Notes under the pieces: generated by a model
The model's database searches: none
The model's input: only the letters and a program-made list of their open reading frames with translations
What the model was told of the DNA's origin: nothing
Shown: in pieces, positions 43,664 through 47,719 of the stretch
How positions within the stretch are numbered: position 1 is the first letter of the stretch
How the letters are laid out: every line of letters starts with the position of its first letter
Made by a program: the position numbers and the translations under genes
Origin: an uncultured Oscillospiraceae bacterium
GTDB lineage: Bacteria > Bacillota > Clostridia > Oscillospirales > Acutalibacteraceae
NCBI GenBank assembly: GCA_949295415.1
Contig: CASFLA010000076.1
Coordinates: 1 to 50,738 of the forward strand
Direction of reading: 5' to 3'
Length of the DNA: 50,738 nucleotides

Positions 43664-45031
43664 TTATATCGTAAGAATTTTGCTGGCAACGATAAAATAT
43701 ATAACGAGCGTAACAACATCAACCAAGGTTGTTATAAAGGGGCTAGCCATAACTGCAGGGTCAAGGCCTAATTTTTTGGCCAGAATCGGCAATGTGCATC
43801 CTATAACCTTTGAGAAAAAAACGGTAAGCGCCAAGGTTATTGAAACAACAACCGCCTCTCTCATTGACACTCCCGCATTTAAAAGCAGGTTATCAATAAG
43901 CAATATTTTAACAAATCCTGCAACAGAAAGCACAACGCCACAAAGGACCGAAACTCTGATTTCTTTCCATAAAACGCGGAAAACATCTCTTAATTCAACC
44001 TCACCGATTGCAAGGCCGCGAATAACGGTTACCGATGCCTGACCACCTGCGTTACCGCCTGTTCCCATAAGCATTGGGATAAAGGCAACGAGCGCAGGAA
44101 ATGCGGTTAACGCGTCCTCGAACGAGGTTATAATACCTCCCGTTAAGGTTGCCGAAATCATAAGCAGCAAAAGCCAAGGAATGCGGGTTAGCAAAATACT
44201 GAAAACGTCCGTTTTAAGATATGGCTTATCTGTAGGCGTAATAGCCGCCATCTTTTCAATATCCTCTGTTGCTTCTTCTTCGATGACATCGATGATATCA
44301 TCGACAGTGATAATGCCGACTATTCGGTCATCATTATCAACAACGGGAAGCGCCATAATATCATATTTTGAGAAGGTTCGGCCGACATTTTCGATATCCT
44401 CGTTAACATGAACGCTGATAACATTGGTTTCCATTATTTCCGAAACCTGCTGCTCCTCAGAGGCAATCAGCAAATCACGAACCGAAACCGTTCCGATGAG
44501 GCGGCGCTTCTCGGTAACATAGCAGGTATAAACCGTTTCTTTATCAACGCCCTCGTGGCGAATCTTTTTAAAAGCCTCAGCCACAGTTAAATCCTTATTG
44601 AGCGAAACATATTCAACCGTCATAATACTGCCAGCGCTATCCTCCGGATAATTTAGCAGTTCGTTTATCTGCTTTCTGACGGTTGGCGATGCGGTTTTTA
44701 AAATTCTTGCAACAACGTTTGCAGGCATTTCCTCAATAATATCAACCGTATCATCTAACCAGAGGTTATCAATAACCTGCTTAAGCTCGGTATCGCTGAA
44801 GCTTTTAATCAGAAGCTCCTGCGTTTCGCTCTCCATATAAGCGAAAACCTCACTCGCAAGGTCTTTAGGAAGAACCCTGTAAATAACAGGGATATCCTTT
44901 TCCTCTAATTCTTCAAAAAGCGGCGCTATATCCGCCTCATTCATTTCTGAAAGAATTTCTTTAATCTTGCCTAATTTCCTTTGCTCGACTAAAGAAATTA
45001 TTTCCTCTAAAAGCATTTCTTTTTCTTCCAT
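43664..45031 (-). CDS. mgtE: Magnesium transporter MgtE
   Basis: A 455-residue magnesium channel. The cytoplasmic N-domain (MgtE_N superhelix, 1-130), a CBS pair (about 135-255, with IMTVEYVSLNKDLTVAEA and IVGIITVDDIIDVIEEE) and five membrane helices follow in the standard order. The pore signature PMLMGTGGNAGGQASV is present, as are the acidic residues that bind Mg2+ to close the gate. GGAGAGGG precedes the ATG. A promoter, short leader ORF and terminator-like hairpin lie upstream, so expression is probably controlled in the leader. Confidence 0.97.
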   Translation of the reverse strand: MEEKEMLLEEIISLVEQRKLGKIKEILSEMNEADIAPLFEELEEKDIPVIYRVLPKDLASEVFAYMESETQELLIKSFSDTELKQVIDNLWLDDTVDIIEEMPANVVARILKTASPTVRKQINELLNYPEDSAGSIMTVEYVSLNKDLTVAEAFKKIRHEGVDKETVYTCYVTEKRRLIGTVSVRDLLIASEEQQVSEIMETNVISVHVNEDIENVGRTFSKYDIMALPVVDNDDRIVGIITVDDIIDVIEEEATEDIEKMAAITPTDKPYLKTDVFSILLTRIPWLLLLMISATLTGGIITSFEDALTAFPALVAFIPMLMGTGGNAGGQASVTVIRGLAIGEVELRDVFRVLWKEIRVSVLCGVVLSVAGFVKILLIDNLLLNAGVSMREAVVVSITLALTVFFSKVIGCTLPILAKKLGLDPAVMASPFITTLVDVVTLVIYFIVASKILTI

Positions 45032-45049
45032 TTTCCCTCTCCTTTACTT

Positions 45050-45096
45050 TTTAAAAATAAAGAAGGATGACCGCTAAAGCAAACAGCAATCATCCT
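45050..45096 (-). terminator. Terminator-like hairpin in the mgtE leader
   Basis: On the minus strand AGGATGA (complement of 45090-45096) pairs with TCATCCT (complement of 45064-45070). A 3-bp inner stem and the T-rich tail TCTTTATTTTT follow. It ends about 20 bases before the mgtE start codon, where an attenuator would be expected. Confidence 0.65.
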
Positions 45097-45124
45097 AAGG
45101 GTCAAACTTTGGAAGGAATAAAAT

Positions 45125-45205
45125 TTAAAGAGAAAAAAGGACTTTGCCCGTTTTCCCTATATTCCCTCGAGGTTTAAGCCCCATACTACTGCCGGACGCG
45201 TCCAT
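45125..45205 (-). CDS. Candidate leader peptide of mgtE, 26 residues
   Basis: A short ORF between the mgtE promoter and the hairpin. It starts at ATG 45205, seven or so bases after AGGTGG, a strong ribosome site. The peptide opens MDASGSSMGLKPRG, is rich in Gly, Ser and Lys, and ends KVLFSL. It is not related to the proline-rich MgtL of Salmonella by eye, but the position is equivalent. It may act in cis by its translation rather than as a protein. Confidence is limited by its small size. Confidence 0.55.
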   Translation of the reverse strand: MDASGSSMGLKPRGNIGKTGKVLFSL

Positions 45206-45235
45206 TTTCTCACCACCTAAAATTTGTTTTTTAAA

Positions 45236-45264
45236 ATTATAACGGTTAAATCTTGATTAGTCAA
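45236..45264 (-). promoter_or_regulatory. mgtE promoter
   Basis: Minus strand TTGACT (complement of 45259-45264), 17 bases, TATAAT (complement of 45236-45241). Transcription should start near 45229, giving a leader of about 195 bases before mgtE. Confidence 0.75.
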
Positions 45265-45269
45265 CAAAA

Positions 45270-46160
45270 TTATGAGATAACAAGGCCCGAATTTTTAAGC
45301 ACGGTTTTGCCCTGCTTAGATAAAATCCAGTTATAGAGAAGCCTTGCTTTTGAATCAACTGCCTCGCTATGCTTAATCGAAACTGCAACATCGGCAGTCC
45401 AGATATAACTTCCGTTTAAAATTGTTTCATTAGAAGCCGCTATTTTGTTAATATTAAGCACCTTGATTTTGCCGTTTTTTTCAACCGATTTTGTTGAAAG
45501 CTCGGAATAGAAACAATAGCCTAATGACCCCGGGCGGTTATCATAATCAATGGGTGAAGTATATTCACCGTTAGCGGTCATAATAACGCTTAAGGGCTGC
45601 TTATATCCCGAATAATCGGGGTTAAAGGTGTTATCAAAAATATTCTTAATAGTTGTGCCCTCGGTTGCCGAAAAAGCAGATATTTCTCTATCCTCAAAGC
45701 CTAATTCTTTCCAATTATTTATCTTACCCGAATAAATAGCTTTTATATTTTCGGCAGTCAGGTTATCAGCCGTATTTTCACCGTTAGTAACAAAAATAAG
45801 CGCATCCTTGGAAAACTCGGTCATTTCAAAAGCGGTATCAGCGTTAAGCAAGCCTTGAACGGTTTGGGAATCGGGCTGAAATGCAATAACCATACTGCAT
45901 TCGCCATCTTTCAAAGCATCATAAGCCGCTTTAACGCTCGGTTTTCTTATAATCAGACCCGAAATATCATTACTTCCCAAAGCCGCCTTGGCAATAATCT
46001 GCCCTGCCGCCTCGGTTGCACCCGTTACGGCGATTTTCGGAAAGGTTTCACAGGTAAAGCTAATGCTCCCGTCTGCCTCTCTGGGCTTTTCCTTGTTGCA
46101 AGCGCAAAGAGCGCAAAGAAGCAACCCTGCGGTAAGCAAAATAGCTAATAGCTTTCTCAT
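45270..46160 (-). CDS. PstS-like periplasmic-binding-fold lipoprotein
   Basis: About 296 residues, a type 2 periplasmic-binding fold resembling phosphate-binding PstS. MRKLLAILLTAGLLLCALCACNKE is a lipoprotein signal (given here as context over its first 24 residues, cut site before the last Cys). Typical PstS segments are NLTAENIKAIYSGKINNWKE and the tail with YNWILSKQGKTVL. No pst permease is nearby, so the protein may serve in sensing instead of transport. The start is ATG 46160 behind GGGGGTGG; it overlaps the previous stop as ATGA. The C-terminus lies five bases from the mgtE promoter. Confidence 0.82.
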   Translation of the reverse strand: MRKLLAILLTAGLLLCALCACNKEKPREADGSISFTCETFPKIAVTGATEAAGQIIAKAALGSNDISGLIIRKPSVKAAYDALKDGECSMVIAFQPDSQTVQGLLNADTAFEMTEFSKDALIFVTNGENTADNLTAENIKAIYSGKINNWKELGFEDREISAFSATEGTTIKNIFDNTFNPDYSGYKQPLSVIMTANGEYTSPIDYDNRPGSLGYCFYSELSTKSVEKNGKIKVLNINKIAASNETILNGSYIWTADVAVSIKHSEAVDSKARLLYNWILSKQGKTVLKNSGLVIS

Positions 46161-47719
46161 TCCGCCCACCCCCTTGCACATTTGAGCACCTTTTCTAACT
46201 TCTCGTTATAAACGGTAATAAACTCATCGTCATAAACAGTCAGATAATTGCCAAAAACCTCCATATAGGAGCAATTTTGGAACAAGAACTGCTTTTTCTC
46301 GGGGTCATAAAGAGAGTAGCCCTTTGTGCTTTCAAATGTGCCTTTGAAAATAATATATTTCCCGTTCAAAAAAGTGTTATTATACTCATATTTCATCCAA
46401 TCGGTCTTTTCGCCCGTTGTTCTGTTAAATACGAGAATAGCGTTTTCGCTTTTGTTTGAAACTACCGCATAATGCTCGGTTGCCTTAACTAAAGCACCAA
46501 ACTCGGTAAAGCTTATTATAGTCTTGCCATCTTCATTAAAGAAATCGGTAACATTACTATAGGTTGAATAGAAAAGTCCGTTCTGACCGCTTAAAACATC
46601 GGGGAATTTGCCCGTCGATGCGCAAACAAGCGGTTTATTGGTTTCGGAGAATAAGAACTCCGCCCTATTAGTATCTCTTGAAATTTTTCTATAAATAATG
46701 CTTTTTGAATCAATTATGGTAACATCAGAATTCTGGCACATAACCCTGGTTACCATTTTACCCGTTTTATCAAAGACAGTCCAGCAAGCCTCCTCCTCAC
46801 AGAGATAATAGCCCTTAGAGGGATAATACTTGATTTCTGTATATTTGGGGCTAAGCAGATATGTTCCATCGGTTTTAATGACACCGTAGAGGCCTTCCTC
46901 GGCAGAAACGATGGCAAGCCCCTCATTAAACTCACCGGCATAAAGAAAAGGAGTAAACTGAATTTCGCCCTTTTTGTTGATATAATAGTGTTCAACCGTT
47001 TCAGCATCTTGGGCAGGGTCCTTAACCTTAACGGTTACGGGAATAAGCCCGTCAGAAAAATTGCCATAGGTTATATCTGTATTGGGCGCAACGGTCAGTT
47101 CCTTGTTAAAGGTAAAGAGCTTTTTGCCGTTGGCATTATGAAAATCATAATAGAAAAACGGAGTTAAGACACCGTTTCTGTAAAGACGGATGGGACGGCT
47201 AACCGCAAACATTCCGCCACCCATAACATCCAACATAAAGCCGCCCTCTTTAATATCAAGAATCCAGCTTCCGTCAGATTTCATAACGGCGCGCTTGCCT
47301 GCCGCCGAGCCGTCTGTTCCCGTTCCGATTTCATAAACAAAGGTGCCGCCGCCTATATCACATTTTCTGACATATGTAAAAACGGCATCACAGACTATAG
47401 TTCCGTCAGTTTTGCAAAAGCCGTAAACCGGAATTGTAACGGTAGCGGAAGCTAAGGGGTCAGTCGGAGTATAGGTTAAATATTTTCCAACAAAGGGGAT
47501 CAGCTCGCCATAATCCTCAGAGGCAACTATGGAGGTTTGGTATGTTTCAAAGAGGCGGGGAATAAGCTCACCGTCTGATTTTTCGGAGGTTATATCGGTT
47601 GGAGTTTCCCTAAGCTCAAAAAAAGCCTCATTGCCTGTTTTAACCTCAGGCTCCTTACAACCTGCAACCGCGCAGGAAATAAGCATTAAAACAGAAAGTA
47701 ATAAGCAGAATTTTCTCAT
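46157..47719 (-). CDS. WG-repeat lipoprotein
   Basis: A 520-residue exported protein. The lipobox AVAGC (signal peptide MRKFCLLLSVLMLISCAVAG) predicts a surface lipoprotein. Repeats of the WG/KWG type are visible, for example EGLAIVSAEEGLYGVIKTDG followed by LLSPKYTEI. The repeats probably fold as a beta-propeller. Function unknown; WG proteins are common on Clostridia surfaces. It is coupled by ATGA to the PstS-like lipoprotein, so they may form one surface system. Confidence 0.85.
   Translation of the reverse strand: MRKFCLLLSVLMLISCAVAGCKEPEVKTGNEAFFELRETPTDITSEKSDGELIPRLFETYQTSIVASEDYGELIPFVGKYLTYTPTDPLASATVTIPVYGFCKTDGTIVCDAVFTYVRKCDIGGGTFVYEIGTGTDGSAAGKRAVMKSDGSWILDIKEGGFMLDVMGGGMFAVSRPIRLYRNGVLTPFFYYDFHNANGKKLFTFNKELTVAPNTDITYGNFSDGLIPVTVKVKDPAQDAETVEHYYINKKGEIQFTPFLYAGEFNEGLAIVSAEEGLYGVIKTDGTYLLSPKYTEIKYYPSKGYYLCEEEACWTVFDKTGKMVTRVMCQNSDVTIIDSKSIIYRKISRDTNRAEFLFSETNKPLVCASTGKFPDVLSGQNGLFYSTYSNVTDFFNEDGKTIISFTEFGALVKATEHYAVVSNKSENAILVFNRTTGEKTDWMKYEYNNTFLNGKYIIFKGTFESTKGYSLYDPEKKQFLFQNCSYMEVFGNYLTVYDDEFITVYNEKLEKVLKCARGWAE

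Follow-up and report, generated by a model that had tools for sequence, protein, structure and literature searches.

In the translational attenuators of erm and cat genes, a ribosome on the leader open reading frame (ORF) selects between overlapping RNA pairings and so determines whether the downstream Shine-Dalgarno sequence (SD) is free. In the mgtL/mgtA and corL/corA leaders of Escherichia coli and Salmonella, efficient translation of an upstream ORF (uORF) at high Mg2+ represses the importer, and the leader has two exclusive folds, with stem A hiding the SD of the uORF itself (PMC11552253). The uORF mgtQ, in the mgtC-mgtB intergenic region of Salmonella, has an AGGAGG SD and aspartate as its second residue, and alternative stems that include its RNA either mask or expose the SD of an Mg2+ transporter gene (PMC8092293). 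A further leader, the mgtE motif SRC-65-1 of Thioalkalivibrio, is an orphan structured RNA before mgtE that was reported in 2024 as a riboswitch candidate (PMC11109978). As far as the searched literature shows, translated Mg2+ leaders have been described in enterobacteria only, and whether the RNA or the ribosome senses Mg2+ in them is still unsettled.

The DNA analyzed here (the window, 50,738 nt from an uncultured Oscillospiraceae bacterium) carries an mgtE gene whose leader contains a 26-codon uORF. From comparison of this leader with its relatives, we consider it probable that it acts in cis as a translation-coupled RNA switch controlling Mg2+ importers. We also favor, with similar confidence, the broader reading that such leaders form an undescribed Mg2+-sensing class in Clostridia, used in place of the M-box for both MgtE and MgtA, whose sensor would be a pseudoknotted RNA jointly with the ribosome that translates the uORF inside it. 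A literature search found no prior description of the element, with subscription papers and preprints outside its reach.

Like the mgtL and corL leaders (the Rfam Mg_sensor family), the element has a uORF before an importer gene, exclusive folds, and a counterpart of stem A in the helix that we call P0. These leaders are its nearest functional parallel, yet we do not place it in the mgtL family; no peptide or RNA similarity between the two was found. The enterobacterial output is Rho-dependent termination, whereas the present element appears to act through an anti-SD or an intrinsic terminator. mgtL relies on proline and acidic codons, whereas the N-terminus of the present consensus is not rich in either and only a few members have such runs. 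Unlike mgtL and corL, the present element stands before mgtE as well as mgtA. mgtQ shares with the present uORF a strong SD, Asp2 and an action on the SD of an Mg2+ transporter, but it has 8 codons and lies inside an operon, and its ribosome occupancy frees the SD, the opposite of the logic computed here. The sign is also inverted relative to erm, where the stalled ribosome frees the SD, while a ribosome on the 5' arm of the present leader is predicted to mask the SD; moreover, the present element involves no antibiotic and no conserved stall peptide. SRC-65-1 is exclusive to Thioalkalivibrio, holds the mgtE SD and start in its P4 stem, and was described without a uORF. An unrelated, widespread element with the same parts as the enterobacterial leaders (a uORF, a hidden uORF SD and two exclusive folds) would represent an independent solution. 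Its dozens of natural variants on two importer families would offer material for testing RNA against ribosome sensing, and it would supply the missing mgtE regulation for many gut and rumen Clostridia that lack an M-box.

An earlier note, made from the sequence of the window, had described a promoter, a strongly initiated 26-codon ORF and a terminator-like hairpin followed by mgtE, and all of these lie on the minus strand where it had placed them. The note missed the helices P0 and P1-3 and the occurrence of the leader before mgtA. The parts of the leader are:

45259..45264, minus strand: -35 hexamer TTGACT
45236..45241, minus strand: -10 hexamer TATAAT, with a 17-nt spacer to the -35 hexamer
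45209..45217, minus strand: SD of the uORF, GGTGGTGAG; an SD also precedes the ORF in 57/57 matches of the pattern scan below
45125..45205, minus strand: uORF of 26 codons, MDASGSSMGLKPRGNIGKTGKVLFSL, belonging to a conserved uORF family
45200..45211, minus strand: P0 5' strand GAGAAAATGGAC (end of the SD, start codon and codon 2), from the duplex swap test and the minimum free energy (MFE) fold of the window leader
45130..45142, minus strand: P0 3' strand GTCCTTTTTTCTC (final uORF codons), from the duplex test and the MFE fold
45160..45193, minus strand: P1-3 5' strand, uORF codons 5-15, GGCAGTA / GGGGCTTAAAC / GAGGGAATA, from duplex tests
45082..45120, minus strand: P1-3 3' strand, TATTCCTTC / GTTTGACCCT / ATTGCTGTT, from duplex tests
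45064..45096, minus strand: terminator-like hairpin AGGATGATTGCTG...CGGTCATCCT, 13 pairs including G-U
45053..45063, minus strand: T-rich tail of the hairpin, TCTTTATTTTT (tail also given as TCTTTATTTT)
45058..45066, minus strand: anti-SD of mgtE, CCTTCTTTA, from anti-SD co-variation across leaders
45036..45046, minus strand: SD region of mgtE, TAAAGGAGAGG
43664..45031, minus strand: mgtE, Mg2+ transporter of 455 aa (NCBIfam TIGR00400, 472.8 bits), the sole copy in the genome

The promoter, TTGACT-17-TATAAT, is of the sigma-70 type with 11/12 matches, and boxes like TTGAC...ATAAT also precede the uORF in the same-genus leaders L002 and L008. Its count is barely above chance (2 found against 0.8 expected in shuffles), and the terminator-like hairpin of the window leader was found once against 0.4 expected. 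It is conservation that places the feature above chance.

At gathering score the window leader matches no Rfam 15 family, and relaxing the cutoff to an E of 10 adds nothing meaningful; for the tested uORF-type loci, Rfam returned only unrelated T-box and tRNA matches elsewhere in the loci. The earlier note had seen no M-box and had named a riboswitch family covering the region, or an ORF not conserved in homologous mgtE leaders, as grounds against its proposal. No family covers the region, the ORF is kept in the homologous leaders, and the covariance model of the M-box (RF00380) has no match above 44 bits in the window leader and 0 matches in its genome or genus, with positive controls in B. 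subtilis and L. lactis. The M-box (ykoK) does the same job as we propose for the element and, like it, precedes mgtE in some relatives. Among leaders that were at first classed as having no uORF it occurs in 4/40, as against 0/19 tested mgtE leaders with the uORF; a minority of the other mgtE leaders carry an M-box instead.

The uORF belongs to a family with the consensus MD[AST]G[SG]S.GT..GRS. Among 33 genomes of the bacterial family that have mgtE, a short SD-preceded ORF with a like start was found at most loci checked (MDAGSNSTGMKPRGTV and MDTGNSSTSAKPRSSN are examples from the same genus). In 50/99 mgtE upstream regions from the same order an ORF fits M[DE]..G..[SNG]; four or five of those ORFs are spurious and the pattern misses about a dozen variants, and so we place the uORF before about half to 60% of the order's sampled mgtE genes. 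A protein search with the 26-residue peptide alone returned one true relative and four chance matches. Loci L037, L041, L215, L219 and L288 were set aside as chance matches.

Support for translation comes from a frame-blind, gene-blind nucleotide pattern, TGGAYNNNGGNAGTAGTN{0,12}GGCACN{5,16}CGAAG, which does not include mgtE and was scanned over 84,980 species genomes. The 57 matches all lie in assemblies titled as Clostridia or related Firmicutes, mostly from gut and rumen, with mgtE downstream in 53/53 testable cases and an ATG start with an SD in 57/57. In all 33 non-redundant matches the first in-frame stop falls at codon 25-35, as against 10-492 in frame +1 and 3-4 in frame +2, and the motif-internal spacings (3 or 6; 7, 10 or 13 nt) all preserve the frame. 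Indel-length statistics taken from pairwise alignments of the apical parts proved too noisy and play no role here. The use of ATG and SD, the fixed ORF length and the in-frame spacings show that the uORF is under selection for translation. As in known uORF attenuators, then, a short ORF, translated as judged by these signatures, stands in the leader of an Mg2+ importer.

Codon choice bears on what is conserved. Serine codons are AGY in 81/90 cases in uORF codons 2-9 versus 18/75 in mgtE, and arginine codons are CGA in 48/79 cases in uORF codons 2-17 versus 2/81 in mgtE. Judged by such sequence comparisons, the conserved N-terminal part is constrained at the RNA/nucleotide level. The C-terminal half is variable, with no conserved peptide stretch at a defined stall site of the SecM, TnaC or Erm type, and the description of the leader as peptide-based, in the sense of an arrest peptide, is not supported. 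Conservation of the acidic residue 2 is overstated, since the leader set was partly gathered by a rule demanding Asp or Glu at that position. Its status as an essential residue was rejected: variants with other residues occur (MSASGRS, MSSGSNN, MSSGSSQ, MASGNGN, MNGPRSN), and their leaders have P0 and P1-3 complementarity. We also observed a CGA-AGT codon pair at uORF codons about 10-15 in most members, even where the P3 pairing is unclear. CGA is rare in the neighboring mgtE genes, and a pause site or an RNA contact at this pair is therefore possible. In L082, L083 and L093, uORF codons 16-26 encode acidic/proline runs (EPDPLPSPDP and similar) that are reminiscent of MgtL and would fit ribosome destabilization in that subgroup.

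MAFFT and RNAalifold on whole leaders, whose apical part differs in length and so hampers alignment-based folding, detected hardly any structure or none. We instead compared the duplex energy of each leader's own strands with that of strands swapped between leaders. P0 pairs the uORF SD, AUG and codons 2-4 with the last uORF codons; across 82 leaders the own strands average -23.3 kcal/mol and the swapped strands -17.2 kcal/mol (z=-18.7; controls 0.2 to 0.9), and the pairing is better than expectation in 78/82. For P1-3, which joins uORF nt 10-48 (codons 4-15) to the segment lying 5' of the mgtE SD, own strands give -29.6 kcal/mol and swapped ones -22.9 kcal/mol (z=-15.6), whereas its control against mgtE coding sequence gives z=+0.6. 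The third pairing, the anti-SD of mgtE, also co-varies across leaders (z=-6.7). Matched controls for the three pairings stay within about +/-1. In 21 held-out mgtE leaders the three z values are -7.3, -6.1 and -3.2, with controls near zero, and P0 and P1-3 each persist in both subsets taken alone, the leaders identified via mgtE and those identified via the 5' pattern. Because their strands do not overlap, P0 and P1-3 would form an H-type pseudoknot. A different stem had been drawn previously, GGGCAAA (45143-45149) with TTTGACCC (45099-45106); it can be drawn, yet it is not the conserved pairing and was dropped in favor of P2 and P0. On comparative evidence, the partner of TTTGACCC is GGGGCTTAAA (codons 8-11), and the final part of the ORF pairs instead with the uORF's own SD and start.

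We propose that the uORF, of 20-40 codons and with a strong SD, would fold back on itself through P0 and P1-3, and that the stretch 5' of the importer SD would serve as the 3' arm of P1-3 while also holding the importer's anti-SD. When the uORF is translated, ribosomes would strip codons 4-15 from P1-3, and the freed 3' arm would pair with the mgtE SD and turn mgtE off. When it is untranslated, P0 and P1-3 would form, the 3' arm would be tied up, and mgtE would be on. We infer Mg2+ as the signal and the ribosome as the sensor, with the following sign of response: falling Mg2+ would impair either initiation on the uORF or its early elongation, and would thereby switch the importer on.

The computed states are consistent with this proposal. 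In the folding model P1-3 and the anti-SD are mutually exclusive, so that by computation the leader has, as attenuators do, exclusive pairings of which one involves the uORF. In a local test that conditions on P1-3, predicted accessibility of the mgtE SD is 0.24 when the 3' arm is free, as it would be with a ribosome on uORF codons 4-15, and 0.62 when P1-3 holds that arm, being higher in the latter state in 62/78 leaders and lower in 2; with shuffled arms it is 32% instead of 24%. Because the free 3' arm lowers accessibility of the mgtE SD, translation of the uORF should turn mgtE off. In full-leader partition functions, a less clean test than the local one, masking the 5' arm as by a ribosome footprint made a clear difference in just 7 of about 50 leaders.

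The link to magnesium was examined with a sequence-only model of nt -14 to +51 (R1), built from mgtE leaders only and searched over the phylum (398 genomes), the order (295) and the class (391), with loci inspected at E<=1e-3; its E-values are rough, and part of the order-level matches were in the training set, while the phylum matches and most class matches were outside it. The 68 loci inspected comprise 58 before mgtE, 8 before an MgtA-type P-type ATPase (L209-L213, L240, L274 and L275), 1 that is cut off and 1 chance match. NCBIfam identifies the three ATPases examined as magnesium-translocating, and the remaining ones were assigned by similarity to these three. The mgtA leaders have P0 (p=0.006) and P1-3 (p=0.001). 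That two unrelated families of Mg2+ importer have one leader in common argues more strongly than any other available finding for Mg2+ as the signal. The 3' arm is distant from the mgtA SD in two mgtA leaders, and L210-L213 must use an output other than the anti-SD because their 3' arm lies well over 100 nt from the mgtA SD. In these same four leaders P0 is a near-perfect helix of 15-17 bp over the SD and start.

The window's own leader is a divergent member, and the case for it is carried by same-genus relatives and by synteny. Its P0, at -14.9 kcal/mol, is weak, being just 1.4 kcal/mol better than expected, and is present in the MFE fold of the leader. Its P1-3 (-27 to -32 kcal/mol) ranks at the 10% level against swapped partners, and R1 gives E=0.008 on the window's own genome. 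Accessibility of its mgtE SD is nearly unchanged between the states (0.13 to 0.18), and so its output must be a terminator or something else. The nested MFE fold (-58.9) combines P0 with the terminator hairpin and leaves the mgtE SD hidden; forcing P1-3 gives -52.0, about 7 kcal/mol costlier with P0 as a pseudoknot uncounted. Since the 3' strand of P1 is the 5' half of the hairpin, P1-3 would act as an antiterminator here, and the freed 3' arm would probably form an intrinsic terminator.

Other explanations divide over what the leader senses and where its output lies. A direct riboswitch for Mg2+ or another ligand, with the P0/P1-3 pseudoknot as aptamer and the uORF as the first controlled gene or a by-product, seems to us rather unlikely, although P0 and P1-3, whose strands do not overlap, would together form an H-type pseudoknot with conserved GGNAGUAGU, GGCAC and CGAAGU segments. 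CGAAGU and AGUAGU are conserved beyond the needs of pairing, and the 5' part of the element is kept although the downstream gene and its SD lie at variable distances from it. The in-frame spacing, fixed ORF length and start-codon use nevertheless show selection on translation itself, and a pseudoknot stabilized by Mg2+ would, by the computed logic, switch the importer on at high Mg2+, which is the wrong way. Less likely still is control by the nascent peptide: at low Mg2+ its Asp2 and Gly/Ser-rich N-terminus would make the ribosome stall or undergo intrinsic destabilization of the kind found with mgtL and mgtQ, and this would set the switch. Residue 2 is acidic in most members, and Asp2 and Glu5 are important in Salmonella mgtQ (PMC8092293); a few members have acidic or proline runs (L082, CEPDPLPSPDP). 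However, the acidic residue is partly the search rule and has non-acidic variants, codon 2 lies inside P0, the uORF start region by itself co-varies with the P0 3' strand (z=-6.1), and the C-terminal half is not conserved; such peptide control would in any case be a special case of the translation-coupled switch, not its opposite.

Plain transcription attenuation, in which an intrinsic terminator is the whole output and the ORF merely positions a ribosome with no control of translation, we regard as quite improbable. It draws on the window, where the hairpin and T-rich tail score as terminator-like and the 5' half of the hairpin doubles as the P1 3' strand, but most relatives have no T-run after the 3' arm and have a co-varying anti-SD. 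The earlier idea of a translated Mg2+ attenuator for mgtE in Clostridia is supported by the conserved translated ORF, the lack of an M-box and the near-exclusive placement before Mg2+ importers, and is the reading we prefer, but it gives way in its stress on the terminator: the output of most relatives looks like sequestration of the mgtE SD, and a terminator is likelier only in the window. That the ORF arose by chance in a leader conserved only through recent kinship of the relatives is barely credible. Only the window's own weak scores, such as that of R1 in its own genome, speak for chance, which is refuted by the frame-blind scan and counted against by the co-variation of P0, the R1 loci, and the mgtA and held-out leaders.

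Around the translation-coupled switch that we prefer, the neighborhood of mgtE shows two minor features. Upstream lie two overlapping lipoprotein-like genes (45270-46181 and 46157-47719, minus strand), the former resembling a phosphate-type substrate-binding protein; a similar pair precedes the uORF in the same-genus L002, so that synteny is kept though mgtE has its own promoter. Just 3' of mgtE (43657-43418, minus strand) is a small XRE-type helix-turn-helix frame (RIGENIRKLRVKAGLA / EMLSANLQ...) broken by an in-frame TAA, which looks like a recent pseudogene or a sequencing error.
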